The notes below the pieces were generated by a model that saw only the letters and a list, made by a program, of their open reading frames with translations, made no database searches and was not told the origin of the DNA. The translations under genes and the position numbers were made by a program. A stretch of DNA of 64,000 nucleotides from Pseudomonadota bacterium (GTDB lineage Bacteria > Pseudomonadota > Alphaproteobacteria > Rhodospirillales > Magnetospirillaceae), in assembly GCA_021782815.1 (NCBI GenBank), contig JAJXUO010000004.1, positions 1 through 64,000 on the forward strand, written 5' to 3'. Shown piece by piece: positions 1 to 53,945 of the stretch. Position 1 is the stretch's first letter. Each line of letters begins with the position of its first letter.

Positions 1-123
1 ACCGATCACCGCCCCTCATGCGCCGGGCGGGTTTCTCCGAAACCCTTGGCTAACGCGCCATCAGGCGCGCGTCGCCTTGCTCCTAACCGGCGTCGCGATG
101 AGTCAAACTCATCGCGACTTGGT
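1..123 (-). repeat. Dispersed repeat family A, copy 1 (cut by window edge)
   Basis: Structured intergenic repeat, closely matched at 12535-12677, 33968-34112 and 34118-34263. Visible here are an arm of hairpin 1, a GGTTTC/GAAACC hairpin, a CGCGCC-ATCA-GGCGCG hairpin and a 12-bp GTCGCGATGAGT/ACTCATCGCGAC hairpin. The end abuts the rpsA stop codon, so the repeat would be transcribed as the 3' tail of the rpsA mRNA. Confidence 0.85.
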
Positions 124-124
124 A

Positions 125-1831
125 TTAGTTCTGGCTCTTTTCTTCCTTGGCGCGATTGAAGGCGGCACCCAGGATGTCGCCCAGGCTGGCGCCCGAATCG
201 GACGAACCGTATTCGGCCATGGCCTGCTTTTCTTCTTCGATCTCGCGGGCCTTGACCGACAGGGTCACCTTGCGGGTGGCCTTGTCGATGGCGGTGATCT
301 TGGCGTCGATCTTTTCGCCGACGGCGAAACGTTCGGGACGCTGATCGCCGCGATCACGGGCCAGTTCGCCCTTGCGGATGAAGCCCGACAGCCCTTCCAC
401 GGCAACTTCCAGACCGTTTTCGGTCACGGCGGTCACGGTGGTGGTCACCACATCGCCCTTCTTGACGTTGGCGATGGCTTCCTTGAAGGGATCGGAGCCC
501 AGCTGCTTGATGCCGAGGCTGATGCGTTCCTTCTCGATGTCGACGTCGAGCACCTTGGCCTTGACGACGTCGCCCTTCTTGAAGTCGGCAATGGCCTGCT
601 CGCCCGAGCGTTCCCAATCCAGGTCGGAGAGGTGCACCATGCCGTCGATGTCGCCGGGCAGGCCGATGAACAGACCGAATTCGGTGATGTTCTTGACCTC
701 GCCTTCCACTTCCGAGCCCACCGGGAACTTCTCGAGGAAGCCTTCCCACGGGTTGGACATGGTCTGCTTCAGGCCCAGGCTGATGCGGCGCTTCTGGGCG
801 TCCACGTCCAGCACCATGACTTCCACTTCCTGCGAGGTGGAAACGATCTTGCCGGGATGGACGTTCTTCTTGGTCCACGACATTTCGGAAACGTGCACCA
901 GGCCTTCCACGCCCGGCTCCAGCTCCACGAAGGCGCCGTAGTCGGTGATGTTGGTCACGCGGCCGACGAACTTGGCGTTGACGGGATACTTCTGTTCCAC
1001 GCCTTCCCACGGATCGGCCTCAAGCTGCTTGATGCCGAGGCTGATGCGCTGGGTTTCCGAGTTGAAGCGGATGACCTGCACCTTGACGGTCTGACCGATA
1101 TGCAGGGCTTCGGACGGATGGTTGATGCGCTTCCAGGCGATGTCGGTGACATGCAGCAGGCCATCGACGCCGCCGAGGTCGACGAACGCACCGTAATCGG
1201 TGATGTTCTTGACCACGCCTTCCAGGATCTGACCTTCCTTCAGGCTTTCGATCAGCTCCGAGCGCTGCTCGGCGCGGGTCTCTTCCAGCACGGCGCGGCG
1301 CGACACCACGATGTTGCCGCGGCTGCGATCCATCTTCAGGATCTGGAAGGGCTGGGCGCTGCCCATCAGCGGGCCGATGTCGCGCACCGGACGGATATCC
1401 ACCTGGCTGCCCGGCAGGAAGGCCACGGCGCCCGACAGATCGACGGTGAAACCGCCCTTGACGCGGCCGAAGATCACGCCGTTGACGCGCAGATTGTCCT
1501 GGAACGACTTTTCCAGCTGGGTCCAGGCTTCCTCGCGGCGGGCCTTTTCGCGGCTCAGCATCACTTCGCCGTTCTTGTCCTCGTAGCGTTCCACGAAGAC
1601 TTCGACTTCGTCGCCGGCCTTGATTTCAGCCGGACGGCCCGGAGCCGAGAATTCCTTGAGCGGGATACGGCCTTCGGACTTCAGTCCGACGTCGATCACC
1701 GCGAAATCACCGTCGACATCGACGACGAGGCCCTTGACGACGGAGCCTTCGAAGCCGCCGTTTTCGCCGAACATTTCGTCCAGCAGCGAGGCGAAGTTTT
1801 CAGAAGTGGTAAATTCAGTGGCGTTAGCCAT
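125..1831 (-). CDS. rpsA: 30S ribosomal protein S1
   Basis: S1 is the mRNA-binding protein of the small ribosomal subunit and helps load structured or leaderless messages. The 568-residue product is close to the E. coli length (557) and shows six S1/OB repeats. The first two (residues about 30-180) are the divergent ribosome-binding ones; the later ones carry the typical YGAFVDLGGVDGLLHVTDIAW, YGAFVELEPGVEGLVH and FGLFIGLPGDIDGMVH strings. ATG 1831 is preceded by an AAGGAC ribosome-binding site. It is last in the aroA-cmk-rpsA order; ihfB, often next to rpsA, lies 34 kb away. Confidence 0.97.
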   Translation of the reverse strand: MANATEFTTSENFASLLDEMFGENGGFEGSVVKGLVVDVDGDFAVIDVGLKSEGRIPLKEFSAPGRPAEIKAGDEVEVFVERYEDKNGEVMLSREKARREEAWTQLEKSFQDNLRVNGVIFGRVKGGFTVDLSGAVAFLPGSQVDIRPVRDIGPLMGSAQPFQILKMDRSRGNIVVSRRAVLEETRAEQRSELIESLKEGQILEGVVKNITDYGAFVDLGGVDGLLHVTDIAWKRINHPSEALHIGQTVKVQVIRFNSETQRISLGIKQLEADPWEGVEQKYPVNAKFVGRVTNITDYGAFVELEPGVEGLVHVSEMSWTKKNVHPGKIVSTSQEVEVMVLDVDAQKRRISLGLKQTMSNPWEGFLEKFPVGSEVEGEVKNITEFGLFIGLPGDIDGMVHLSDLDWERSGEQAIADFKKGDVVKAKVLDVDIEKERISLGIKQLGSDPFKEAIANVKKGDVVTTTVTAVTENGLEVAVEGLSGFIRKGELARDRGDQRPERFAVGEKIDAKITAIDKATRKVTLSVKAREIEEEKQAMAEYGSSDSGASLGDILGAAFNRAKEEKSQN

Positions 1832-4703: not shown

Positions 4704-4783
<80 letters not shown>

Positions 4784-4828: not shown

Positions 4829-5149
4829 CAGCTCTGCAATGCAAAGCGACAGTCGGTGAAATCCAAGCGGATCAACAGCTTATTTTGATGGCGGGCGCAG
4901 CTCGTTTACACATCTTTTAACACACGTTTTTGATGGTCTTGACGGCGGTATAGACGGTCGCGTGTTCGCAATTTGTTCTTGACTCGCGCTCGCGAAAAAT
5001 TTGACACTGCGCAGAAAGCAGAACCGCGAGCGAAACCACCGGGGAACCGGGGGACCACTCACAGCGGCTCTGCTTTTTTATTGCCTCATCACATCCAAAG
5101 CCCCGTGCCTGCCCAGGCCGGGGCTTTTTGCTTTCCGAAAGGACGTCAC
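4829..5149. other. Island left end, no convincing gene
   Basis: About 320 bp with short overlapping open frames on both strands and no recognisable protein. A hairpin (AAGCCCCG/CGGGGCTTTTT, near 5098-5130) followed by T residues resembles a terminator. The stretch may hold the decayed 5' part of the integrase gene that follows. Confidence 0.5.
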
Positions 5150-5836
5150 ATGCAAATGCACGAGCGCCTGCAAAAGGCCTGGCTCGCCGAGGGCCGTTAC
5201 CGCACCACCCACCGCACCCTGACCTTCACCGATCAAGGGTTGGAACTCGGCAAAGGCACCCTGCTGGTCAAATTCATCCGCTTCGACGTAAACCTCCTTT
5301 ACGTCGCCGAGGACACCAAGACCGGCAAGCGCGAGGTTCCGTTGCGGGACGAAGCGGCAAACCGCCTCAGAGCCCTTAAAAAGCGGCACGAGACAGCAGC
5401 GGGCGAACTTACAGCAAGTAAGTCTGTCTTCACCCTGCCCAGCGGCGAGAAGATCAATCTCAGCGACATGTTCAACGCCGTCATCGAGCGCTGCAAATTC
5501 CCCGTTCGCGCCGACCAACTCCCCTACAGCCCCTATAGCCTGCGGGCGACGTTCGCCACCTTTTCATTGGCCGAAGGGCGCAGCTACGAATGGCTGGAGG
5601 AGGTCATGGGCACCAGCATCAAGATGCTGAAAGCCCACTACAAACAGGGCACCATCGAGCAGACCCAACGTTACCTCCGTAAGAAGGGCGTTATGCCGAT
5701 GGAAAGATGGGGCAGTGCGTCGGCGATCTGGGCGCAACCGGTGTCATTGACGCAGGCTGCTTGGTCTTCCGGCGTTGCCGGTGGGAATAGCGTGGTGCTG
5801 ACGGCTGATGGGGTTTTGGTAAAGACAGCATCTTGA
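5150..5836 (+). pseudogene. Tyrosine recombinase (integrase), N-terminally truncated
   Basis: Only the C-terminal catalytic part of a phage-type integrase can be read (228 residues from ATG 5150, with GAAAGGA upstream). Visible are the beta-hairpin TKTGKREVPLRDEA, the second catalytic Arg in YSPYSLRATFATFSLAEG, the MGTSIKML segment and the HY of the nucleophile region. The arm- and core-binding domains and the first catalytic Arg (usually in a GLRxGE string) are missing, and the His of HxxR is replaced by Tyr. It is probably a remnant of the enzyme that inserted the island. A divergent functional recombinase is possible but less likely. Confidence 0.7.
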
Positions 5837-5852
5837 ACACGTAACGCCTCAC

Positions 5853-5880
5853 TTGACCAGAAAGAGGCGCATGGTAAACT
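5853..5880 (+). promoter_or_regulatory. Promoter of the retron RNA
   Basis: TTGACC (5853-5858), 16-bp spacer, TAAACT (5875-5880). Transcription would begin about seven bases on, near 5887, exactly where the a1 arm of the msr-msd RNA starts. That coincidence is the main support. Confidence 0.6.
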
Positions 5881-5886
5881 CTCGAT

Positions 5887-6023
5887 GAGCTTACAGGTAG
5901 AATTGTTGTCCGGTTTCGAGACATATGTACCAAAGCTAGGAGGTCGCTTGTGCTTCCCTGCTGTCCCATGCCAGGTGATCGATGAATGCGATGCCGAGTG
6001 CGCGTAGGAGTGCCTGTAAGCTC
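5887..6023 (+). ncRNA. Retron msr-msd non-coding RNA
   Basis: A 137-nt segment lies between the integrase remnant and the reverse transcriptase. It is bounded by an exact 11-bp inverted repeat: GAGCTTACAGG (5887-5897) and CCTGTAAGCTC (6013-6023), extendable inward by a U-G and an A-U pair. These fit the a1/a2 arms that hold the ends of a retron transcript together. Inside are a hairpin with a GTTT loop (about 5907-5923: TGTC-CG/CG-A-GACA), as in msr stem-loops, and a second hairpin in the msd half (GGTGATCG/CGATGCC around 5973-5995). A priming G would lie shortly after a1. Exact msr/msd limits cannot be set by eye. Confidence 0.8.
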
Positions 6024-6040
6024 GCTTGCTTGAGGTACAA

Positions 6041-7801
6041 GTGTCCCATCTAGCCCGCTTAAAAGAACTCGAAACTCGCAAAGAACTTGCAGACCTTCTT
6101 GGGTATAGGCCAAGTGCCCTTACATCCATCGTCTATATGACGCCTCCTGCTCTAAAATATACGTCTTTTGAAATTCCAAAAAAATCAGGAGGCATGCGCC
6201 TCATTAAGGCCCCATCCCCGAAATTAAAAGAGCTACAATCTCGCCTATCCGGCATTTTATATCAGTGCCTAAAGGAGATTGAGGATAAAAAAGCGTATCG
6301 CCCGATATCTTTTGGATTTCGCGAAGATAGATCAATTGCAGAAAATGCCGCGAGGCATAAACGACATCGATGGGTTTTGAATATCGACCTGGAGAATTTT
6401 TTCCCGTCTTTTAACTTTGGGCGCGTTAGAGGATTTTTCTTAAAAGATAAGGCCTTCGAGCTGCATCCAGAAGTCGCTACGACAATTGCCCAAATTGCAT
6501 GCGATGGTGAGGCGCTCCCGCAGGGCAGCCCATGCTCGCCAGTCATTTCCGAGCTAATTGCGCAGATTTTGGATATGAAGCTGGTGCGGTTGGCAAAAAG
6601 AATGAAGGTAACGTACACGCGCTATGCGGATGACATTACTTTTTCCACAAGTCAAAAAGTATTTCCTAAGGGCATCGCAAGTCAGGACGACGCAGATTCG
6701 GCCATTTGGCACCTTAGCGAGGGCCTACTAGAGATAATTTCTAGATCCGGCTTTTCTGTTAATAGCGCAAAAACAAGGATGCATTTTACCGGCAGCAGGC
6801 AAATAGTCACAGGCCTTGTCGTTAATGAAAAAGTTAATATACCAAGTGATTATTATCGCAAGGCGCGAGCGATGTGCGATAGCCTATTGCAGACGGGGAA
6901 GTATTTTAAAGCAGTGGTAGCCCCCGTAAAAGAAGGGGATGATTCCACTCCAGTATTGCTAACAGGAACCAACACCTTAGAGGGAATCCTGAGCCACATT
7001 TATGCCGTAACCCAAAAGGAAGATAAGAGAGATATCCAGGAGCAACGCAAGACACCTCGCGCCATTCGCAAGCTCTATCGACGCTTCTTGTTTTACAAAT
7101 ATTTCATAGACTTAAAGTCGCCCCTCATTGTGACAGAGGGAAAAACTGACCCTATTTACCTCAAGGAAGCGGTTAGGCATCGGGAAAAATTCCATCCAGT
7201 TCTCGGAGAATATGATGCGGAAGGCTTCAAGCACGCTGTTCAATATTTCAACTATGCAGGACAGGTGCATGAGATACTAGACATAAGTGGTGGTGGGGCC
7301 GGAAACCTCAAATCCATCCTGCTGGACTATAGGCGAAATTTTCGTCCTTCTTCCAAGGATCCGAAAAGAATTAATTACTGCCCACTGCAGTTTCCAGTAA
7401 TACTTGTTGTAGACAACGACGACGGTTTTAGCCAGATCGCAGGCCCAACAAAGGATATTTTTGGTGTGGCAATTTCACGATCAGACACGTGTGATTTCTA
7501 TCATATTATCGAAAATCTCTACATCGTTAAGACACCGGAAGATGGAGCGAATAAAACTTGTATAGAAGATCTATTTCCTGAAGAGTGGCTAAGCAAAGAG
7601 CTGAACGGTAAAAAATTTAATAAAAATAATGAAATTGACTCAAATACGGAATACAGCAAAGAAATATTTGCAAATTCCATTGTGAAGAAGCATGCAAAAG
7701 AAATAGACTTCTCAAAATTTGACGATCTTTTAGAGAGGGTCCAAAAAGTTATAGAGGATTACGCGATTAAGGCCACGACAGCAGGCGCTAAGACACCTTA
7801 A
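6041..7801 (+). CDS. Retron reverse transcriptase fused to a C-terminal TOPRIM domain
   Basis: Would copy part of the upstream RNA into branched msDNA. GTG 6041 is chosen, with GAGG five bases upstream; TTG 6026 would overlap the end of a2. The product has 586 residues. RT blocks: IPKKSGGMRLIKAP (about 45-58), retron-specific NAxxH as NAARH (102-106), DLENFFPS with the first catalytic Asp (116), LPQGSPCSPVISE (159-171), YADD (195-198) and the retron VTG triplet (256-258). From about residue 360 follows a TOPRIM fold: LIVTEGKTDPIYL with the catalytic Glu (366) and VVDNDDG (456-462) as the DxD. Most retrons encode effectors separately; here a nuclease-like domain is built in. The gene is clearly AT-richer than the flanks. 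Confidence 0.92.
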   Translation: MSHLARLKELETRKELADLLGYRPSALTSIVYMTPPALKYTSFEIPKKSGGMRLIKAPSPKLKELQSRLSGILYQCLKEIEDKKAYRPISFGFREDRSIAENAARHKRHRWVLNIDLENFFPSFNFGRVRGFFLKDKAFELHPEVATTIAQIACDGEALPQGSPCSPVISELIAQILDMKLVRLAKRMKVTYTRYADDITFSTSQKVFPKGIASQDDADSAIWHLSEGLLEIISRSGFSVNSAKTRMHFTGSRQIVTGLVVNEKVNIPSDYYRKARAMCDSLLQTGKYFKAVVAPVKEGDDSTPVLLTGTNTLEGILSHIYAVTQKEDKRDIQEQRKTPRAIRKLYRRFLFYKYFIDLKSPLIVTEGKTDPIYLKEAVRHREKFHPVLGEYDAEGFKHAVQYFNYAGQVHEILDISGGGAGNLKSILLDYRRNFRPSSKDPKRINYCPLQFPVILVVDNDDGFSQIAGPTKDIFGVAISRSDTCDFYHIIENLYIVKTPEDGANKTCIEDLFPEEWLSKELNGKKFNKNNEIDSNTEYSKEIFANSIVKKHAKEIDFSKFDDLLERVQKVIEDYAIKATTAGAKTP

Positions 7802-7913
7802 ATTCGGAGGCCCTGCCGAAGAACTGCTACTTCCCGTTCTCGGGCGCGCTTCAATTCATGCAACTTGACCAACAAAGGCGCTCCTGCAACCATAAGGCAT
7901 GGAGGTTAGGTCT

Positions 7914-9629
7914 ATGACAGGCATGAATGGTTGGCAGCGCGATCTCGTTTCTCCTTTGGACCTTCAGCTAGACCCGGATAATCCTCGGTTTGAGCTAACT
8001 ACGCGCAATCAAGACGCTATCCTCGCGCACCTATTACGCGATCATGATGTGATAACCCTTGCTAAAAGCATTGCAGAAGCCAAACAACTTTGGCCAACAG
8101 AAACAATTCTGACGTACTTTGATGGGAAACAGCACATTGTCCTTGAGGGGAACCGCAGGACAGCCGCGTGCAAAGTATTGCTTAACCCAGAGATTCTGCC
8201 GGATATCGCGCAAGATTTAATACAGCAAATTCCTATCATTGATGATGAGACCAGAAGAAATATCAGCAAGGTCGATATCTGCTTTGATTATGATCGGGAG
8301 CGAGGTGATCCGATTGTTGCTAACATACATGCCGTCATCCAGAGGCGGGCATGGTCCCTTGTGTCCCGAATGCGCTATGTGCATCGAGAGTTCAAAAAAA
8401 GTAAGAACCCTCAAGAAATAGCCAAGACACTCAAGATTGATCTAAAAACAGTTAAATTGCTTCTTCGTGGAAGAGAGGCACTCCACATCGCAATTCATGG
8501 AAACACATGGACTGATGAAGAGAGGACCATCTTATATAACGATGACCAAATTGATCACGACTCCTTTTTGCGAGCTGTGCTTTCACCCAGCGTAGAGAGG
8601 CATTTTGGACAGCCCATGTTCTTTGATGATGGCCGCGCCAATCGAATCGGGTTTGTATATCTTGAAAAAATGGTCGGCATCGTTGCCCGACATACACTGA
8701 TAGCCCAACGCTTAGAAACCGACGACAAATTCTCGAAAGGAGATTCGATCGAAGAGTATCTACGGCGTACATGGCCTATTCGCGAACGAGTGAATGAGGT
8801 CGCCCCAAGCGCGGGAAAGGATCCGGACCTATTCGATCTGAATAAGCCAGCTGGCAGCGCATCTTTATATACACAGCCTCCCAACAAGGGAACGGGAGGT
8901 TGGCAACGCCCTCATGTGGAAGGCACTAGTGTTTCGAGCCCCCACACCCAAGTGGAGCCTCCGGTTGCTTCTGCCCGGCCGATGAAGGAGGCATTAGAGT
9001 TTCCTGGAGATGACGAGAACGGCAACGCCGCAAAGTCAGAAACATTAGGTCAAACGACAATATCGGGCCCATCGCCACAGCAGTCGCCAATTTCTAGCCC
9101 CCCTTTTAGCGAACCAAAGGTCGACACTCCGGCCTCCTCGTCAATAACTCCAATTCAAAAGCCAAAGCCACCACAGCTGCTCGAGGATATTCGATGCAAT
9201 CGCGATGATGATCGCTTGAAACAACTAACGTACGAGTTGACGCAGCTCAGCACCACCAAGAACAATCAGATGTCATTTAGATTATCTTTGTTTATGCTTA
9301 TGCGGGCATTGCTAGAATGGTCTCTCGTTTATCACTATGACCAGATCAAGGTTGCTTGCCGCGATGAAAAGGGCCAGCACTTTGCAATTGGGAAATTAGT
9401 CGATATAGCAAGCACCCGTGCGGGTATTTTTCCAGACAACAAGAAGCTGTCCGAGCGTGCTAGCACCATTGCGTCACATTGGCTCAAAGACCTGCACTGG
9501 AATTCCCATAACGACATGGGCAATTGGAGCCTAGAGCGTTTGCAAAATATTGCAGGTGATTTGCGCCCCATACTGCGTTTCATACTTATGGACGCCGTTT
9601 ATGAAGATACCTCTGAGAAAACGGATTAA
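7914..9629 (+). CDS. ParB/HTH-domain protein, probable partner of the retron
   Basis: 571 residues from ATG 7914, which has GGAGG eight bases upstream. N-terminal ParB/sulfiredoxin-type domain (about 10-110): LDPDNPRFEL and the signature VLEGNRRTAA (76-85). A helix-turn-helix follows (about 160-195, NPQEIAKTLKIDLKTVKLLLRG), then a Pro/Ser/Thr-rich linker (about 310-428). The alpha-helical C-terminal domain (429-571) carries WNSHNDMGNWSLERLQNIAGDLRPILRFI, which recalls HEPN-like tails but is not assigned. The gene starts 112 bp after the RT gene, same strand, with similar AT-rich codon use. ParB-fold proteins can bind or cleave DNA and hydrolyse CTP. The role here, effector or regulator in phage defence, is inference. 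Confidence 0.75.
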   Translation: MTGMNGWQRDLVSPLDLQLDPDNPRFELTTRNQDAILAHLLRDHDVITLAKSIAEAKQLWPTETILTYFDGKQHIVLEGNRRTAACKVLLNPEILPDIAQDLIQQIPIIDDETRRNISKVDICFDYDRERGDPIVANIHAVIQRRAWSLVSRMRYVHREFKKSKNPQEIAKTLKIDLKTVKLLLRGREALHIAIHGNTWTDEERTILYNDDQIDHDSFLRAVLSPSVERHFGQPMFFDDGRANRIGFVYLEKMVGIVARHTLIAQRLETDDKFSKGDSIEEYLRRTWPIRERVNEVAPSAGKDPDLFDLNKPAGSASLYTQPPNKGTGGWQRPHVEGTSVSSPHTQVEPPVASARPMKEALEFPGDDENGNAAKSETLGQTTISGPSPQQSPISSPPFSEPKVDTPASSSITPIQKPKPPQLLEDIRCNRDDDRLKQLTYELTQLSTTKNNQMSFRLSLFMLMRALLEWSLVYHYDQIKVACRDEKGQHFAIGKLVDIASTRAGIFPDNKKLSERASTIASHWLKDLHWNSHNDMGNWSLERLQNIAGDLRPILRFILMDAVYEDTSEKTD

Positions 9630-10337: not shown

Positions 10338-10386
10338 ATGGCATTGTAGAGGTCAGGAGTTCGATCCTCCTTGGCTCCACCAAATA
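10338..10386 (+). other. attR: right 49-bp direct repeat, displaced tRNA-Ala 3' half
   Basis: Exact copy of 4735-4783. It begins in the anticodon loop and ends four bases past CCA; there is no 5' half upstream, so it cannot form a tRNA. The original tRNA-Ala terminator follows at once. Confidence 0.93.
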
Positions 10387-10537: not shown

Positions 10538-11641
10538 ATGGACAAGACCGCGTCCTCCCTTCCCTTATCCGCGGATCAGGACCCGCGCTGGCGGGCGCTG
10601 GTGGCGCGCGACCGGTCGCAGGATGAACAGTTCGTCTATTCGGTGAAGACCACCGGGGTCTATTGCCGCCCCTCCTGCGCCGCCCGTCTGCCGCGGCCGG
10701 GGAACGTGGCCTTCCATGCCGATTGCGCCGCCGCCGAACGGGCCGGCTTCCGCCCCTGCAAGCGCTGCAAACCCGACCAGCCCCCGGCGGCGCGGCGCAT
10801 GGCCCAGGTTGTCACCCAAATCTGCCGGATGATCGAAGCGGCCGACGAGAGCCCCACTCTGGCGCAGATGGCCGCCGCCGCCGGCCTCAGCCCCTGGCAT
10901 TTCCACCGGCATTTCAAGGCGGCGACGGGGATGACGCCGAAAGCCTATGCCAAGGCGCAGCGCGGCCGGAAACTCCGCGCGGAACTGACGCGGCCGGGCG
11001 CCACGGTGACCGACGCCCTCTATGCCGCCGGCTTCGCCTCCAGCGGCCGCTTTTATGAAGCCGCCGACCAGCTTCTCGGCATGACGCCCGGCGCCTATCG
11101 GGCCGGTGGCGCCGGAACGGTGATCCATTTCGCCATCGGCCAATGCTGGCTGGGCGCGGTGCTGGCGGCGCACAGCCAGCGCGGCGTTTGCGCCATCCTC
11201 ATGGGAGAGGATCCCGACGCCCTGGCCCGCGATCTGCAAGATCGCTTCCCCAAGGCCCACCTGATCGGCGACGACCCCGGCTATGAACGCATCCTGGCGG
11301 CGGTCATCCAGGGCATCGACCATCCGGAACAGGGCATCGACCTGCCCCTGGACATCCAGGGCACCGCCTTTCAGCAACGGGTGTGGCAGGCCCTGCGGGA
11401 GATTCCGCCGGGAAAAACCGCCACCTACAGCGAAATCGCCGATCGCATCGGCGCCCCCCGGGCGGTGCGGGCGGTGGCCGGCGCCTGTGCCGCCAATCCC
11501 CTAGCCGTGGCCGTTCCCTGCCACCGGGTGGTGCGCACCGACGGCGCGCTGACGGGCTACCGCTGGGGGGTGGAACGCAAGCGGGCCCTGTTGCGGCGGG
11601 AAGCGGCGCGATGCCCGCCAGCCGCCCCCGAAACATCATGA
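10538..11641 (+). CDS. ada: Bifunctional Ada: methylphosphotriester/O6-methylguanine methyltransferase and activator
   Basis: Repairs methylated DNA by suicide transfer to cysteines and, once methylated, activates the adaptive response. ATG 10538 gives 367 residues. The N-terminal zinc domain (about 15-95) has Cys43, Cys47, Cys74 and Cys77 in GVYCRPSC and FRPCKRCKPD, matching the E. coli C38/C42/C69/C72 pattern. An AraC-type HTH follows (about 100-190, GLSPWHFHRHFKAATGMTPK). The methyltransferase domain ends in the active-site string VAVPCHRVVR. Its stop overlaps the alkA start (ATGA), so the two are co-translated. Confidence 0.96.
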   Translation: MDKTASSLPLSADQDPRWRALVARDRSQDEQFVYSVKTTGVYCRPSCAARLPRPGNVAFHADCAAAERAGFRPCKRCKPDQPPAARRMAQVVTQICRMIEAADESPTLAQMAAAAGLSPWHFHRHFKAATGMTPKAYAKAQRGRKLRAELTRPGATVTDALYAAGFASSGRFYEAADQLLGMTPGAYRAGGAGTVIHFAIGQCWLGAVLAAHSQRGVCAILMGEDPDALARDLQDRFPKAHLIGDDPGYERILAAVIQGIDHPEQGIDLPLDIQGTAFQQRVWQALREIPPGKTATYSEIADRIGAPRAVRAVAGACAANPLAVAVPCHRVVRTDGALTGYRWGVERKRALLRREAARCPPAAPETS

Positions 11642-12534
11642 CGACGCTCTGCCGCTGCCGCGTCCCCCTGCCACCCGGCTACCGGATCGCCGATTTTCTC
11701 GCCTTCCATGGCCGCGACGCCGCGCAAACCGCCGAACAGGTCACGGCGGACAGCCTGCGCAAGGGGCTGGTGTGGCAGCGGCGCCCCGCCTGCCTGACGG
11801 TACGCTTCACCGCCGCCGCCGTCGAGGCCACGCTGGACGGCGACCCGCCGCCGCCCGGCGCCGAGCCTTTGGAAACGCTGCTGCGCCGCATGCTGGGGCT
11901 GACCCAGCCCATCGCGGCCTTTGAACGCGCCTATGCCCGCCATCCCGATCTCGGCCGCCTGATCGCCCGCCATCCCGGCCTGCGCCTGCCGGTTTCCGCC
12001 TCGGCGTTCGAGGCCTTGATCTGGGCGGTGGCCGGCCAGCAGATCAGCGTTCAGGCCGCCCTGTCGTTGCGGCGGAAAGTGATCGAAACGGCTAATATCC
12101 GCCATTCCAGCGGATTGCTGTGCCACCCCGATGCCGCCGCCCTGGCCGCCCTGACGCCGGAACAGCTGCGCGCCGCCGGTTTTTCCCGCAGCAAGGCCGC
12201 GACGGCGCAAGAGATCGCCGCCCGCCTGCAGGACGGCCGGCTGCGCCTGGAGGCCGCCGCCGACCCCGGCGACGAAGAGCGCCTGCGGCAAAGCCTGCTG
12301 GCGATTCCCGGTATCGGCCCCTGGACCGTCAGCTACGCCCTGCTGCGCGGATTCGGCCTGCTCGACGGATCGCTGCACGGCGATGTGGCCGTGCGCCGTG
12401 GCCTGCAAAGCCTGTTGAACAGCCCCACGCCGCCCACCGGACAGGAAACCGAGCTTTGGCTGGCCCCGTTCCGGCCGTGGCGGGCCCTGGTGGCGGCCCA
12501 TCTGTGGGCCTGGAAATCGGCCCAGGCCTATTAA
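11638..12534 (+). CDS. alkA: DNA-3-methyladenine glycosylase II
   Basis: Excises alkylated purines, leaving abasic sites. ATG 11638 overlaps the ada stop by four bases, giving 298 residues. The HhH-GPD core is clear: FEALIWAVAGQQISVQAALSLR, then the hairpin LLAIPGIGPWTVSYALLRGFG and the catalytic Asp in LLDGSLHGDVAVRRGL. The N-terminal part (residues 1-110) is the AlkA-specific beta domain. It forms an ada-alkA adaptive-response operon; family A repeat copy 2 follows at the stop codon. Confidence 0.93.
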   Translation: MTTLCRCRVPLPPGYRIADFLAFHGRDAAQTAEQVTADSLRKGLVWQRRPACLTVRFTAAAVEATLDGDPPPPGAEPLETLLRRMLGLTQPIAAFERAYARHPDLGRLIARHPGLRLPVSASAFEALIWAVAGQQISVQAALSLRRKVIETANIRHSSGLLCHPDAAALAALTPEQLRAAGFSRSKAATAQEIAARLQDGRLRLEAAADPGDEERLRQSLLAIPGIGPWTVSYALLRGFGLLDGSLHGDVAVRRGLQSLLNSPTPPTGQETELWLAPFRPWRALVAAHLWAWKSAQAY

Positions 12535-12677
12535 ACCAAATTGCAGTGATCGGAACCGATCACTGCACCCTCATGCGCCGGGCGGGTTTCTCCGAAAACC
12601 TTGGCTTCGCGCCATCAGGCGCGCGTCGCCTTGCTCCTAACCGGCGTCGCGATGAGTCAAACTCATCGCGACTTGGT
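12535..12677 (-). repeat. Dispersed repeat family A, copy 2
   Basis: Starts one base after the alkA stop. It holds the hairpins GCAGTGATCGG/CCGATCACTGC, GGTTTC/GAAAACC, GCGCC-ATCA-GGCGC and GTCGCGATGAGT/ACTCATCGCGAC. The outer bases ACCAA and TTGGT are inverted and flanked by ATTA on both sides, perhaps a target duplication. Confidence 0.88.
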
Positions 12678-12719
12678 ATTAGCTTTGCCGGCCCGGTTTT
12701 CCGCCTTTGACGCTCAGGT

Positions 12720-31757: not shown

Positions 31758-33431
31758 ATGGGAAACGCGTTGGGCCCTGATCCGCAGGTGCGGCCGTCCG
31801 ACGGGGAAGCCATCGAAAACGCCGCGCTGTCCCGGGACGAACAGACGCAGATCCTGATCTTGCAGCAACGGCTCCTGGAGGCCGTGGCCAAGGGCGGCAA
31901 CGCCCTGGATATCGCCCGTCAGGTCTGCAGTCTGGAGGAAAAGCTGCTGCCCAATTCCGTGGGCACGGTGATGCTGCTGGACGAGGCGCGGGAACGGCTG
32001 AACGTTTTTGCCGCCCCCAGCGTTCCGGCGGAAGGCGTTTTACGCCTGAACGGATTGCGGCCCGGCCCCGGCAACGGCTCGTGCGGCAACGCCGTGTTCA
32101 GCTGCAAGCCGCAATTCGTGCAGAACACCTTTGAGGATCCGCGCTGGAGCAATCTCCGCCAGCTGGCCACCGATTTCGGCCTGTGCGCCTGCTGGTCCAT
32201 GCCGATTTTTTCCGCCTCGGGCCAGGTGATCGGCTCGTTCGCCCTGTCCAGCTTCGAACATCGTCTGCCCAGCGGCTTCCACCGCGCCCTGCTGGAGATC
32301 GGCGCCTCCATCGTCGGCATCGTGCTCGACCGCGCCAAGGTGCGCGAACATCTGCGGCTTTATGAAAAATTCTACGCCAACAGCGCCGAAGGCATGATGA
32401 TCACCGACGCCGCGCAGAAGATCGTTTCGGTCAACGCCTCGTTCCTGCGGGTGTTCGGCTATGCCGAGGAGGACGTGATCGGCCAGACGCCGCGCATGCT
32501 GTCGTCGGGGCGCCACGATGCCGCCTATTATCAGGACATGTGGCGCGGCCTGTCCCGCGCCGGCCAGTGGCGCGGCGAAATCTGGAACCGCCGCCAGAAC
32601 GGCGAGATTTTTCCCGAGCTTTTGTCCATCGCCACCCTGACCGACGGCGAAGGCCGCATCACCCATTATATCGGGCTGTTTTCCGACTTGAGCGACCGCA
32701 TCCGCGCCGAGGCCGACCTGCGCGAAAAAAACCGCCAGCTGCTGCGCTCCAACGAGGATCTGGAGCGTTTCGCCTATGCCGCCTCGCACGATCTGCAAAC
32801 GCCGCTGCGCAACATGGTGCATTTCGCCCAACTGCTGGACCGGCGCTACCGCGGCCGGCTGGACGCCGATGCCGACGATTTCATCGACATCATCGTCGAG
32901 GGCGGCAAGCGTATGACCAATCTGGTGCGCGACCTGCTGGATTATTCCCGCGCCGGCAGCGGCGACGACGCCCTGACGGCGGTGGACACCGCCCAGGCCG
33001 TGCGCCTCGCCCTGCAAAACCTCGATCTGGCTCTGCGCGAAAGCGGCGCCCATCTCGACATCGGCCCCCTGCCCCGGGTCATGGGCGAACCGAGCCTGAT
33101 CGCCGAGCTGTTCCAGAACCTGATCCAGAACGCCATCGACTACCGCGCCGCCGAACGAACGCCACGTATCGTCATCTCGGCGCAAGACGGCCCCGATGGT
33201 TTTTGCCGTATCACCGTGGCCGACAACGGCATCGGCATCGAACCGCGCTATTTCGGCAAGATCTTCGAATTGTTCCAGCGCGTGTCGCCGCCCACGTCCG
33301 ATCGCGGCACCGGCATCGGCCTGTCCTTATGCCGCCGCCTGGTGCATCGGTTCGGCGGTGAGATCGGCGTGGAGTCCACTCCCGGACAGGGCTCGGCCTT
33401 TCACGTTACCCTGCGGCGGGCGACGGACTGA
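31758..33431 (+). CDS. GAF-PAS sensor histidine kinase
   Basis: 557 residues, soluble. GAF domain (about 40-190: SVGTVMLLDEARERLNVFAA, GNGSCGNAVFSCKP, CWSMPIFSASGQVIGSFAL), PAS domain (about 200-320: NSAEGMMITDAAQKIVSVN, GYAEEDVIGQTPRML), then the phosphoacceptor AASHDLQTPLRNMVHF and ATPase boxes NLIQNAIDYR, VADNGIGIEP and GTGIGLSLC. The output partner is not encoded nearby. The SNEDLERFAYAASHDL linker resembles the two other PAS or PBP kinases in this window, suggesting they are paralogues. Confidence 0.92.
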   Translation: MGNALGPDPQVRPSDGEAIENAALSRDEQTQILILQQRLLEAVAKGGNALDIARQVCSLEEKLLPNSVGTVMLLDEARERLNVFAAPSVPAEGVLRLNGLRPGPGNGSCGNAVFSCKPQFVQNTFEDPRWSNLRQLATDFGLCACWSMPIFSASGQVIGSFALSSFEHRLPSGFHRALLEIGASIVGIVLDRAKVREHLRLYEKFYANSAEGMMITDAAQKIVSVNASFLRVFGYAEEDVIGQTPRMLSSGRHDAAYYQDMWRGLSRAGQWRGEIWNRRQNGEIFPELLSIATLTDGEGRITHYIGLFSDLSDRIRAEADLREKNRQLLRSNEDLERFAYAASHDLQTPLRNMVHFAQLLDRRYRGRLDADADDFIDIIVEGGKRMTNLVRDLLDYSRAGSGDDALTAVDTAQAVRLALQNLDLALRESGAHLDIGPLPRVMGEPSLIAELFQNLIQNAIDYRAAERTPRIVISAQDGPDGFCRITVADNGIGIEPRYFGKIFELFQRVSPPTSDRGTGIGLSLCRRLVHRFGGEIGVESTPGQGSAFHVTLRRATD

Positions 33432-33933: not shown

Positions 33934-33967
33934 GACAAGCTCCCCTTGCGCTGCGGGAGGGCTCATC

Positions 33968-34112
33968 CCAAATCCCGTTGATCGGACCCGATCAACGGAG
34001 CCCCTCAGGCGGCGGGCGGGGTCTTCCAGACCCCTTGCCTAACGCGGCATCAGCCGCGCGTCGCCTTGCTCCTAACCGGCGTCGCGATGAGCCCTGCTCA
34101 CCGCGCCTTGGT
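33968..34112 (-). repeat. Dispersed repeat family A, copy 3 (first of a tandem pair)
   Basis: Same layout as the other copies, but hairpin 2 is GGGGTCT/AGACCCC, hairpin 3 is CGCGGC/GCCGCG and hairpin 4 is GCGATGAGC/GCTCACCGC. Both arms change together relative to copies 1 and 2. Confidence 0.9.
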
Positions 34113-34117
34113 ATAAG

Positions 34118-34263
34118 ACCAAATCCCGTTGATCGGACCCGATCAACGGAGCCCCTCAGGCGGCGGGCGGGGTCTTCCAGACCCCTTGCCTAACGCGGCA
34201 TCAGCCGCGCGTCGCCTTGCTCCTAACCGGCGTTGCGATGAGTCAAACTCATCGCGACTTGGT
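34118..34263 (-). repeat. Dispersed repeat family A, copy 4 (second of a tandem pair)
   Basis: Hairpins at 34126-34149, 34169-34185, 34194-34209 and 34232-34258. The first three match copy 3; the fourth matches copies 1 and 2 apart from one base. The end abuts the trpF stop codon (34265-34267). Confidence 0.9.
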
Positions 34264-34264
34264 A

Positions 34265-34915
34265 TCAGTCCCCTTTGGCGGCACGGATGAAGGCGGCGAT
34301 CTTCTCGGCGTCCTTCACCCCCGGCGCCCGCTCCACCCCCGACGACACATCCACGGCCCGCGCCCCCGACAGGCGTACCGCCTCGGCCACATTGCCGGCA
34401 TCGAGGCCGCCGGCCAGCATCCACGGACAGGCCCATTTGCGCCCGGCCAGCAGCGACCAATCAAAGGACACGGCATTGCCGCCGGGACGATCGGCGGCGG
34501 CCGGGGCTTTGGCGTCGAACAGCAGCCAATCGGCCACCTCGGCATAGGCCTGGGCGGCATCGAGATCGGCGGCGGTGGCGATGCCCAGCGCCTTCATCAC
34601 CGGCATGCCGTATTCCTGACGCACCGCTTCGATGCGGTCGGGGGTTTCACGGCCATGAAACTGGAACAGATCCAGGCGCAGATGGTTCATCACCTGATCG
34701 AGAAAGGCGTTGTCGGGATCGACGAACAGGCCGACCCGCGTCACCTCCTCGGGCACGAATTCCAACAGCTCGTTGGCCCGTTCGATGGTGACATGGCGCG
34801 GACTGTTTTCGAAGAACACCACGCCGACGAAATCGGCCCCGGCATCGATGGCGGCATCCACCATCTCCTCCTCGGTCAGGCCGCAGATCTTAACCTTGAC
34901 GGGTTTCAGGCTCAT
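34265..34915 (-). CDS. trpF: Phosphoribosylanthranilate isomerase
   Basis: Amadori rearrangement in tryptophan synthesis. 216 residues, TIM barrel: VKICGLTEEEMVDAAIDAGADFVGVVFF with the catalytic Cys, FQFHGRETPDRI, LLFDAKAP, WMLAGGLDAGNVAEAV and VDVSSGVERAPGVKD with the general acid Asp. The start overlaps the pyrF stop (ATGA). trpB, which usually follows trpF, is absent; two repeat copies and an unknown gene stand in its place. Confidence 0.96.
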   Translation of the reverse strand: MSLKPVKVKICGLTEEEMVDAAIDAGADFVGVVFFENSPRHVTIERANELLEFVPEEVTRVGLFVDPDNAFLDQVMNHLRLDLFQFHGRETPDRIEAVRQEYGMPVMKALGIATAADLDAAQAYAEVADWLLFDAKAPAAADRPGGNAVSFDWSLLAGRKWACPWMLAGGLDAGNVAEAVRLSGARAVDVSSGVERAPGVKDAEKIAAFIRAAKGD

Positions 34916-38282: not shown

Positions 38283-40274
38283 ATGACGCTGCCCCCCGAA
38301 GGTGTTGCCGGTTTCGTGGTGGGCGGGTCACTGGCCGTGGGACTGCTGCTGTGGAGCCGCGCCCGCCGCGGCGCGCGGCGGATGCGCGCCCGTCTCGACC
38401 GGTTGGAAAATGATCTGACGGCTCTGCGGGACGAGGCGGAACGGCTGACCGACTTCCAGACCCTGTTCGACGACACCCGCGAAGCCTTGTTCCTGTTCGA
38501 AGCCGGAGACCACCGCCTGTTGCGCATCAGCCAGGGCGGCGTGGAGATGCTGCGACACCCGCGCGACGCCCTGCTGGGCCGCCCGCTGCTGGAAACCGGC
38601 GCCCTGGGCGACGAAGCCGATTTCCTGCGCCACAAGGCCCGGCTCACACAGGGGCCCGCCCTCAGCGCCGCCTACGAAAGCCAGACGCGCCACCCCGACG
38701 GCACGCGCGTGCCGCTCGAAGTGTTCCTGCAATATATCCCGGCCCGCCCGCACCAACCCGCCCGTTTCATGGCCGCCGCCCGCGATATCCGCGACCGCAA
38801 GGCCGACGACGAGGCCCGGCGCCGCCTGTCGGCCGAGCTGGAAGCCATTCTGGCCAATATTCCCGTCGGCATTTCCCTGATCTCGCCCGATCGCCGCATC
38901 CTCAAGGTCAACACCGCCTTCTGCGACATCTATGGCGGACGCGAAGAGGAGTTTCTGCAGCAGGCCACCGGCGATTTCTACGCCCGCCGCGAGGATTACG
39001 AGGCCATCGCCGCCGAGGCCCTGCCCACCATGCTGCGGGGCGAGACCTATGTGGTGGAATGCCCCATGCTGCGCCGCCACGACCGGCGCGAACTGTGGTG
39101 CCGCCTGTCGGGCCGCCTGATCGACCCGGCCAATCCCGGCCTGGGCTACGTCTGGGCCCATGACGACATCACCGAGCGGCGGCGCACCGAGCAAAGCCTG
39201 CGCGACCGTCAGGACCTGTTCGAACAGATGTTCATGGCCAACGGCGCCATGAAGATGCTGCTGGACCCCGCCGACGGTCATATCGTCGACGCCAATCCCG
39301 CCGCCGCCCGTTTCTACGGCTACGATCTGGAGCGCCTGCGCAGCCTGCGCATCGGCGACATCAACGTGCTGCCGCCGGATCTCTTGAACGAGGCCCTGGA
39401 TCAGGCCAGCCACGGCCCCCAATACTACATGTTCCGCCACCGCCTGGCCGACGGCACGCTGCGCGATGTGGAAATCTACGCCGGGCCGGTGGTGGTGCAA
39501 GGGCGGCCGCTGCTGTTCTCCATCATCCACGACGTCAGCGAGCGGCTGCGCATGCAGGCCGACCTGATCCGCCGTACCGAGGAACTGCAACGCTCCAACG
39601 AGGATCTGGAATCCTTCGCCTATGTGGCCTCGCACGATTTGCGGCAGCCGTTGCGGATGATTTCCAGCTATCTGTCGCTGCTGGAACGCACCCTGGGCGA
39701 GCGGTTGGATCAGGACGGGCGCGACTATCTGGGCTTCGCCCGCGATGGCGCCAAGCGCATGGATCATCTGATTCAGGATCTGCTGGATTATGCCCGGGTG
39801 GGACGGCGCGACCGCCCGCTCACCGCGGTGTCGCTGCAGGCCGTGCTGGAGGAAACGCTGCTGCACCTCGGCGGCGCCCTGAAAGAGTGCGGCGCGGAGC
39901 TGCGCCTCCCCGACAGCCTGCCAAGCGTGCTGGGCGATGCCGGCGAACTGCAGCGCCTGCTGCTGAACCTTTTCAGCAACGCCCTTAAATACCGCAGCCC
40001 GCAACGCCCCCCCGAGATCACCCTGTCGGTGGAGCGCCAGGGCGGCGACTGGCGCTTCTGCGTGGCCGACAACGGCATCGGCATCGACCCCGAATTCCAC
40101 GACCGCATCTTCGGGCTGTTCCAACGCCTGCATCTGCAAAGCCAGTATGACGGCACCGGCATCGGTCTGGCGGTGTGCAAACGCATCGTCGATCACCATG
40201 GCGGCCGCATCTGGGTGGAGTCCGCCCCCGATCAGGGCGCCCGTTTCTTCTTCACCCTGCCCCGCCTGCCATGA
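38283..40274 (+). CDS. Multi-PAS sensor histidine kinase
   Basis: 663 residues from ATG 38283; GTG 38271 is an alternative start. One N-terminal membrane helix (about 5-24) and a coiled coil (LDRLENDLTALRDEAERL) precede three PAS domains (about 55-175, 185-300 and 310-425). The phosphoacceptor box is VASHDLRQPLRMISSYLSLLE and the ATPase boxes are NLFSNALKYRS, VADNGIGIDP and GTGIGLAVCKRIV. Orphan kinase, no receiver gene adjacent. It converges on ccoG across a shared hairpin at 40278-40308. Confidence 0.92.
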   Translation: MTLPPEGVAGFVVGGSLAVGLLLWSRARRGARRMRARLDRLENDLTALRDEAERLTDFQTLFDDTREALFLFEAGDHRLLRISQGGVEMLRHPRDALLGRPLLETGALGDEADFLRHKARLTQGPALSAAYESQTRHPDGTRVPLEVFLQYIPARPHQPARFMAAARDIRDRKADDEARRRLSAELEAILANIPVGISLISPDRRILKVNTAFCDIYGGREEEFLQQATGDFYARREDYEAIAAEALPTMLRGETYVVECPMLRRHDRRELWCRLSGRLIDPANPGLGYVWAHDDITERRRTEQSLRDRQDLFEQMFMANGAMKMLLDPADGHIVDANPAAARFYGYDLERLRSLRIGDINVLPPDLLNEALDQASHGPQYYMFRHRLADGTLRDVEIYAGPVVVQGRPLLFSIIHDVSERLRMQADLIRRTEELQRSNEDLESFAYVASHDLRQPLRMISSYLSLLERTLGERLDQDGRDYLGFARDGAKRMDHLIQDLLDYARVGRRDRPLTAVSLQAVLEETLLHLGGALKECGAELRLPDSLPSVLGDAGELQRLLLNLFSNALKYRSPQRPPEITLSVERQGGDWRFCVADNGIGIDPEFHDRIFGLFQRLHLQSQYDGTGIGLAVCKRIVDHHGGRIWVESAPDQGARFFFTLPRLP

Positions 40275-47871: not shown

Positions 47872-47969
47872 AGCGCCTGCGATGCGGGGCGGCCCGCATG
47901 CGAAGGCTTCGTATAGCGCATCTTGAGGGGGAAGGCAAAGGGGAAGGTGCGCGTCCGCAGGGGAATCGG

Positions 47970-48132
47970 GTGAACGCGCGATCGTTGTTTGTTTGCACGG
48001 GATTTTCGCCGCGTTGGCGCATTGAGCGCCCGCGCAACCGTTTGCGCGCAAGCCAAGCTGGCGGCACGCCAGCGCCCGGCGCCTGAGCGGACATGTGAAA
48101 ACCAGGGCAATCGGCTTCGCCCGATTGCCCTG
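47970..48132 (-). repeat. Dispersed repeat family B, copy 1
   Basis: About 160 bp that align with 53744-53934 nearly throughout (GTGAACGCGCGATCG, then CGCAACCGTTTGCGCGCAAG and GGCGCCTGAGCGGACATGTG). The gene-proximal end is a terminator hairpin. Confidence 0.85.
48097..48132 (-). terminator. Terminator of the PBP-kinase gene, inside repeat B
   Basis: 12-bp stem CAGGGCAATCGG (48103-48114) with 48121-48132 and a 6-nt loop, then GTTTTC on the minus strand. It lies 34 bp after the kinase stop codon. Confidence 0.8.
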
Positions 48133-48165
48133 TGCGCGTCGGCCATCGGTGGCGGCTTCGAAACC

Positions 48166-53607: not shown

Positions 53608-53743
53608 AGAACCGCGTCCTCCCGGTTTGCACCATCGGTCGGGCAAGACTGTAGCGGCATTCCGCCGGATCGGCCAACCTCAATCTTTCCATATTTATTA
53701 CGATATAGAAACAAGGCTTGCCGCGGCACGCCAGGGTTATCGT

Positions 53744-53934
53744 GTGAACGCGCGATCGCTGTTCGTTTGCAAGGGGATCTTCGCCGCGTTGGCGCGATGA
53801 GCGCCCGCGCAAGCATTTGCGCGATGAGCGCCCGCGCAACCGTTTGCGCGCAAGCCAAGCTGGCGGCCGGCCCGCGCCCGGCGCCTGAGCGGACATGTGA
53901 AAACCAGGGCAATCGGGGGAACCCGATTGCCCTG
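53744..53934 (-). repeat. Dispersed repeat family B, copy 2, with internal 27-bp duplication
   Basis: Aligns with 47970-48132 but is longer because a 27-bp unit is doubled: 53792-53818 and 53819-53845, differing only at three adjacent bases (GCA/CCG). It ends in the same terminator hairpin. Confidence 0.87.
53899..53934 (-). terminator. Terminator of the lipoprotein gene, inside repeat B
   Basis: 13-bp stem (53905-53917 with 53922-53934), 4-nt loop, then GGTTTTC on the minus strand, 12 bp after the stop codon. Confidence 0.85.
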
Positions 53935-53945
53935 CCGCGGCAGGA

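Follow-up and report, generated by a model that had tools for sequence, protein, structure and literature searches.

Prokaryotic MITEs such as RUP, Nezha, NEMIS and ERIC (named in PMC3733652 and PMC3049150) are short, non-coding repeats of high copy number with terminal inverted repeats, target duplication, stable folds and a mostly intergenic position, and prokaryotic MITEs are described as AT-rich in PMC10969869. The IS1031 subgroup of the IS5 family has a TNA target and a 3-bp direct repeat (PMC12016507, in excerpt). Repeats are also on record as suppliers of stop codons: the ends of GTAG REP elements often provide a TAG stop codon (PMC3733652, in excerpt), and the BOX elements of pneumococcus encode a gene's stop codon in 36 cases (PMC3049150, in excerpt).

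The window analyzed here, i.e., the whole stretch of 64,000 nucleotides, holds four copies of one repeat (1–124, 12534–12678, 33966–34113 and 34117–34264), which probably belong to a family of short non-coding mobile DNA elements of the MITE type with a TNA target. The repeat is short, non-coding and multi-copy, has terminal inverted repeats and a target duplication, and an empty site exists for it at one locus. It shares with RUP, Nezha, NEMIS and ERIC the small size, the lack of coding sequence, the high copy number, the terminal inverted repeats, the target duplication, the stable folds and the mostly intergenic position, but differs from them in being G+C rich, in its very short TACCAA ends, in its four to five separate internal hairpins, in the order-wide turnover of its stems and in its frequent exact placement on a stop codon. 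A G+C content of 57–69% also sets it apart from the AT-rich prokaryotic MITEs described in PMC10969869. The 3-bp TNA target repeat is a likeness to the IS1031 subgroup (PMC12016507, in excerpt), but the element is without a transposase, and since its TACCAA ends are unlike the end of ISLrh (GAACCTGT), the sole member compared, it was not classed as an IS1031 derivative. GTAG and CGTC REPs and BIMEs are likewise palindromic, 3'-flanking, tandem and mosaic, and the ends of GTAG REPs often supply a stop (PMC3733652, in excerpt), whereas the present element is longer, has several hairpins and a duplicated TNA, and provides a TAA or TGA stop within the duplicated triplet. BOX elements are also modular and stop-codon-supplying (PMC3049150, in excerpt), but differ in host, modules and ends, and in the present element it is the duplicated target triplet that acts as the stop.

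A search of the open-licence literature returned no description of this element family. If the mobile-element reading is right, a group of bacteria carries, right behind its genes and often on the stop codon, a mobile element that is apparently undescribed and numbers tens to hundreds of copies. Such a family breaks assemblies and forms the 3' flank of many genes; it would offer a natural test of what keeps the palindromes of mobile DNA palindromic (selection on DNA shape, copying between arms, or RNA folding), and it poses the precise question of how stop codons become the site of an element.

Element copies, ends and target duplication

The initial annotation had placed the four copies at 1–123, 12535–12677, 33968–34112 and 34118–34263; all of them are present, and these boundaries were off by a few bases only. 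Its label, an intergenic element, was right about the repeat and its fold but missed a likely mobile element with a 3-bp TNA duplication, as it did the element boundary, which is TACCAA...TTGGTA flanked by TNA. The copies in the window, their flanking triplets and the adjoining genes are:

1–124, plus strand: element copy, left side cut by the contig start (R1 match, sequence)
125–127: right TNA (TTA) of the contig-start copy, which is the TAA stop of the rpsA-like gene
125–1831, minus strand: 30S ribosomal protein S1 (rpsA-like) gene, ends on the element (PF00575, E 2.4e-95)
11383–12534, plus strand: AlkA-like DNA glycosylase gene, ends at the left junction of the 12.5 kb copy (PF00730, PF06029)
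12531–12533 and 12679–12681: TNA (TTA) on both sides of the 12.5 kb copy
12534–12678, plus strand: element copy, 145 bp, subfamily I (R1 match, sequence)
33963–33965: TNA (TCA) left of the tandem pair, identical to the triplet at 34265–34267 (sequence)
33966–34113, plus strand: element copy, 148 bp, subfamily II, first of the tandem pair (R1 match, E 5.3e-34)
34114–34116: single TNA (TAA) common to both tandem copies (sequence)
34117–34264, plus strand: element copy, 148 bp, subfamily II, second of the tandem pair (R1 match, E 1.5e-35)
34265–34267, minus strand: TNA (TCA) right of the tandem pair, which is the TGA stop codon of the trpF-like gene
34265–34915, minus strand: phosphoribosylanthranilate isomerase (trpF-like) gene, ends on the element (PF00697, E 2.2e-45)

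At the 12.5 kb copy, the TAA stop of the left gene (12532–12534) overlaps the left junction by one base.

Copies in the window's own genome run TACCAAAT...ACTTGGTA, with variation, and carry a TNA flank on either side. Perfect ATACCAA...TTGGTAT ends were found in 25 of the own copies and nowhere in the reversed control of the same genome; the terminal inverted repeats are short and become degenerate past 6–7 bp. A strict rule gave both ends to 81 of 124 core copies (the 43 dropped ones comprise contig ends, incomplete copies, chance matches and two copies from other genomes), and the TNA triplet was identical on both sides in 69 of the 81, while 29.9 were expected from triplet frequencies. Identical triplets were also present in 27 of 32 elements from five other genomes, which had been chosen for their perfect ends, and in a third set of 42 elements chosen by model score a TNA stood on both sides in 34, with 27 of these 34 identical (10.9 expected). 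In the set used for gene context (see below), identity was found for 50 of 60 elements of subfamily I and 14 of 25 of subfamily II, to which the tandem pair belongs.

One empty site was found. The copy L238 of genome G036 lies between two convergent genes, and in G072, from the same genus, the corresponding flanks (84% identical on the left, 78% on the right) are 11 bp apart and hold no element. Five of the six further genomes printed for this locus (L299–L303) are also element-free, and the sixth (L304) deviates in its downstream part. Judged by eye, the two reading frames stop at equivalent positions whether or not the element is present. As the triplets flanking the occupied copy are unlike (TTA and TCA), the locus shows insertion or loss and no exact duplication, and a precise loss of this copy in the related genomes may be the alternative to insertion.

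Another copy, at 9244–9460 of a contig from a viral collection (L210, 13,192 bp), has TCA on both sides (E 1.2e-25). It first surfaced as the single core match among viral contigs and was confirmed as a true element by a covariance model built from 48 sequences of six genomes. Genes for terminase, portal and head-tail adaptor proteins lie near it, so that the element also occurs on phage DNA. The same contig has two more portal-like genes (5083–6441 and 6787–8139) with toxin-like C-terminal domains, which matched Ntox37 and, weakly, a glutamine deamidase fold and thus look like portal-toxin-like fusions.

Given the duplicated TNA flanks, insertion most likely occurs by a transposase that cuts with a 3-bp stagger, and we infer that this enzyme would be supplied in trans. 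In the own genome, none of the matches to PF01609 (4) and PF13340 (2) had paired TACCAA...TTGGTA ends, with two PF13340 matches each visible from one end only because they lie at contig starts. A search for an autonomous partner among these PF01609/PF13340 candidates yielded three left-end-like strings with no right partner under loose settings and one string, with no pairs, under stricter ones, and the candidates were rejected.

Stop codons and gene context

Over three sets, 76 of 159 elements were placed on a stop codon, against 6–10% expected, using a simple and crude codon-usage gene caller trained on the window and applied to relatives and nulls alike. In the own genome, the TNA was the stop codon of the adjacent gene in 42 of 85 elements, with 25 cases at the right end and 17 at the left, where one case is shifted by a single base, whereas 205 of 1987 nearby non-coding or stop TNA triplets were stops (10.3%, p 1.3e-19); leaving aside the copy with the one-base offset, the count is 41 (p 1.1e-18). 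These 85 elements were what remained of 117 copies with a right end after a left end (90 copies) and 350-bp flanks were required; both members of tandem pairs are included, and the left end is misplaced in a few. The relatives gave 14 of 32 (null 5.7%, p 6.5e-10) and the third set 20 of 42 (null 6.3%, p 1.4e-13).

A gene met the right end of the element more often than the left in all three sets (25, 12 and 14 right vs. 17, 2 and 6 left; total 51 vs. 25, p 0.004), but this bias is absent in the own subfamily I (11 right vs. 15 left) and the third set alone gave p 0.12. Around the own elements, the 84 non-coding contexts comprised 38 convergent, 36 co-directional and 10 divergent gene pairs, and one element lay inside a called ORF.

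In about half the copies examined, the TNA is a TAA or TGA stop codon; since the triplet is then itself the stop, the gene keeps it and the element becomes the start of the 3' flank. Any effect on the host mRNA is putative. Either insertion bias or selective survival may have caused the stop-codon placement; a position this exact is not obviously accounted for by survival alone.

Hairpins, paired changes and what may maintain them

The unit has the order TACCAA - H1 - linker - H2 - H3 - (H5) - H4 - TTGGTA and is usually 145–148 bp long, with an overall range of about 100–200 bp. In copies of the own genome, CGTC follows hairpin H3. In the second copy of the tandem pair, the helices are:

34126–34149, plus strand: hairpin H1 (CCGTTGATCGG-AC-CCGATCAACGG; sequence, covarying helix 1)
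34162–34190, plus strand: outer 3-bp stem (P2), GGC at 34162–34164 and GCC at 34188–34190, enclosing H2 (covariation)
34169–34185, plus strand: hairpin H2 (GGGGTCT-TCC-AGACCCC; fold, covariation)
34194–34209, plus strand: hairpin H3 (CGCGGC-ATCA-GCCGCG; fold)
34234–34257, plus strand: hairpin H4, adjoining the right end (fold, covariation)

The three complete copies in the window folded far better than dinucleotide shuffles on either strand, with z values of -5.7, -8.1 and -6.8 on the plus strand and -4.7, -5.6 and -5.8 on the minus strand.

Paired changes were assessed in alignment A3 (54 elements from 32 genomes), which was fitted to the covariance model and leans to structure, and in alignment A2, made by MAFFT without structure; covariation was tested by shuffling and sliding the pairing partners. 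In A3, 21 of 32 pairs had changed on both sides and 95.3% of the cells were paired. Its covariation score was 0.463, compared with 0.129 ± 0.007 for shuffled partners (0 of 500 shuffles reached it) and at most 0.094 when partners were slid by 1–3 columns. The score of A2 was 0.419 vs. 0.138 in shuffles, while its measure of further pair types was not above the shuffles (452 of 500 reached it). The outcome named by the initial annotation as speaking against a conserved shape, paired changes no commoner than chance, was tested for in both alignments, and the test did not refute that shape.

Single pairs reach all four Watson-Crick states, e.g., the column pair 60–68 (UA 21, CG 17, GC 9, AU 6). 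Perfectly complementary stems occur in 17 different versions for H2 (38 of 54 rows, a further 14 being imperfect and 2 gapped) and in 21 for H1 (41 of 54 rows). The GGGC linker is conserved in 52 of 54 rows; the H2 loop reads TCC in 29 rows and has one base in addition to TCC in 9 (38 of 54 together). The outer stem P2, missed in the first reading, covaries as well (GCC/GGC vs. GGC/GCC; column pair 49–77 of A3 with GC 27 and CG 25). Of the individual differences listed at the outset, the paired changes GGGTTTC/GAAACCC vs. GGGGTCT/AGACCCC and CGCGCC/GGCGCG vs. CGCGGC/GCCGCG are real, whereas GATGAGC/GCTCACC gained one compensated pair (T-A to C-G) and had another one broken (A x C).

Wobble pairs were counted in fixed alignment columns. 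Helices H1, P2, H2 and H3 (1237 cells) had 1181 Watson-Crick, 7 G-U, 18 A-C and 31 other combinations, so that the G-U share was 0.6%, compared with 7.0% in tRNAs from the same DNA (15 distinct tRNAs, 304 Watson-Crick and 23 G-U of 327). The shortage holds for both strands, being seen as G-U on the first (p 1.2e-10) and as A-C on the second (p 9e-7); this speaks against an RNA fold as the feature that is retained and points to DNA hairpins in H1, P2, H2 and H3. H4 (485 cells: 436 Watson-Crick, 17 G-U or 3.5%, 15 A-C, 17 other) makes a DNA-only constraint less clean, and RNA is possible for this helix. The tandem pair and its surroundings have two predicted terminator-like sites, compared with 0.4 in shuffles; H1 with its tail on the minus strand is one of the two. 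One weak terminator-like site lies on the element, and no promoter was predicted.

The stem sequences drift with pairing kept, and most loops and linkers stay unchanged; given the nearly pure Watson-Crick pairing of H1, P2, H2 and H3, either DNA hairpins or cruciforms would matter to the element's own spread or the arms would copy each other. Such pairing fits selection on DNA hairpins as well as arms copying each other in replication, and the initial proposal of selection for a folded RNA or DNA shape holds in part: a conserved fold is strongly supported by the covariation in A3, but copying between arms could also keep them paired. That mutation alone does this, by template switching at palindromes that copies arm onto arm with no function needed, seems to us rather unlikely; it concerns the cause of the pairing and is compatible with the MITE reading. 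The Watson-Crick arms with few wobble intermediates agree with it, as do rare H2 variants of the own genome, among which both one-sided and two-sided changes are present. By itself, however, template switching leaves the likeness of loops and linkers between genera (the TCC-type H2 loop and GGGC, in the rows counted above) and the constant order of the hairpins unexplained, and one-sided variants persist, such as the T x C mismatches of H1 in several own-genome copies.

We find it distinctly improbable that the repeat is a structured RNA, i.e., an array of 3'-UTR hairpins that protects or ends transcripts, persists because selection acts on its RNA fold and is mobile only in a secondary way. 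The extreme covariation, the elements that often directly follow stop codons, the right end that faces the gene more often (although not in subfamily I), the few divergent contexts (10 of 84) and the two terminator-like sites around the tandem pair would all suit such an RNA, but the scarcity of G-U and A-C in four helices compared with tRNAs, the TNA duplications, the empty site, the copy on a phage contig and the persistence of length variants of about 100–200 bp do not. Even less credit is given to REP/BIME-type repeats moved by a hairpin-reading RAYT (Y1 HUH) transposase, since a duplicated target triplet flanks the elements and HUH-type REP mobilisation is not known to make one; the unit is also about 146 bp long instead of 20–40 bp. 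REP palindromes have a GTAG or CGTC tag at one end; the present elements end in TACCAA/TTGGTA, and their own-genome copies have the CGTC after H3. Palindromes, intergenic position, tandem copies and mosaic composition would all be in line with such repeats, as would the stop codons often supplied by GTAG REP ends (PMC3733652, in excerpt).

Copy number, spread and modules

The own genome (3,439,070 bp in 118 contigs) contains the 23-base spacer 159 times at ≤ 3 mismatches (85 forward, 74 reverse), with no match in the reversed-spacer control; the covariance model gave 151 matches with 150 candidates scored, and BLAST with one copy gave at least 49 matches with 40 candidates scored. The family has about 150 copies in this genome, a few of which may be counted twice because many contigs start or end inside a copy. 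Such contig ends are common in this assembly (G000), e.g., at C45:1 and C45:98745, and the repeat family thus probably adds to the fragmentation of the assembly.

Among 60 relatives, the spacer described as constant in the initial annotation had one match (≤ 3 mismatches) in each of two and was otherwise absent; it recurs for the most part in L257 and in the phage contig. L257 (genome G028) contains at 1501–1646 most of the spacer CGTCGCCTTGCTCCTAACC, which is otherwise typical of the window's genome and suggests an exchange of modules between species. A repeat restricted to its own species, as suggested by the spacer search, was overturned by an end-to-end pattern and by the covariance model. 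The pattern ATACCAAN{115,145}TTGGTAT revealed the same architecture with different stems in G019, G020, G029, G032 and G036, with reversed controls of 0 in each of these five genomes, 1 in G040 and 2 in G057; it matched 10 genomes in total, of which by eye G012, G040 and one of three places in G032 are unrelated and G001 and G050 are diverged. Three diverged relatives lie at one locus of the same-genus genome G001 (L203, 552–677, 1185–1310 and 1502–1632), with weak model E-values of 1e-5 to 2e-6.

The covariance model matched 51 of 55 genomes of the bacterial family and 14 of its 17 genera. In a sample of the order, with 12 candidates scored in each genome, 103 of 248 genomes had matches, 35 of which came from the own family; among the 68 others, 22 had a match < 1e-10 and many of the remaining ones were weak, the E-values of the model being rough owing to a short calibration. 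When 150 candidates were scored, the matches per genome numbered 151 in G000, 129 in G020, 90 in G032, 46 in G071, 40 in G019, 36 in G102, 31 in G217 and 18 in G027. The core pattern gave at least 11 single matches in GTDB contigs, none of which was matched by the covariance model, and these were discarded. No match was found in the plasmid sequences searched. Above its gathering scores, Rfam 15 identified only tRNAs in the window and had no match to the element, and in three relatives it gave two matches with E below 1, neither of them on the element.

The window holds two divergent relatives of the element:

47973–48116, minus strand: divergent relative, central linker and hairpin module common, ends different (R1 match, E 8.5e-11)
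53816–53918, minus strand: second copy of the divergent relative (R1 match, E 7.9e-07)

Both share with the present family a module of CTCAGGCGCCGGGC, hairpin and TTGGCTT, and further mosaics were recognized by eye in L025, L033 and L199. A module search gave 132 matches, 17 of which were not classed as members of the family by rule, although most of these 17 are copies that the rule missed. As the module is present in elements with other ends, the central hairpin module appears to be common to different elements. A more far-reaching version of the mobile-element reading, which we consider unlikely, is an order-wide, phage-carried element whose machinery would read the shape of a string of hairpins and not the sequence, would home to stop codons, and would share its module across different ends; if true, such an element could reach hundreds of genes and leave the proteins intact.

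Some further repeats in the window were recorded. The two divergent relatives are copies of a second repeat family (47948–48140 and 53721–53942) that has CAGGG-type inverted ends, and its copies are seemingly flanked, by eye, by 8-bp direct repeats (TGCGCGTC; CCGCGGCA), in contrast to the 3-bp TNA of the family described above. Three stretches are repeated with 70–85% identity between 32739–33244 and 39585–40090, 6846 bp apart, and by eye resemble portions of two sensor-kinase genes. The 3'-terminal 49 nt of a tRNA-Ala gene (4704–4776) recur without mismatch at 10338–10386. Between the two are a weak phage integrase match, a reverse transcriptase, for which RT-Toprim_I-C was the best PADLOC match (E 2.1e-215), and a protein of 576 aa whose N-terminus is PD-Lambda-5_A-like; judged by these matches, the segment 4704–10386 resembles an integrative island that carries a defence system based on a reverse transcriptase.
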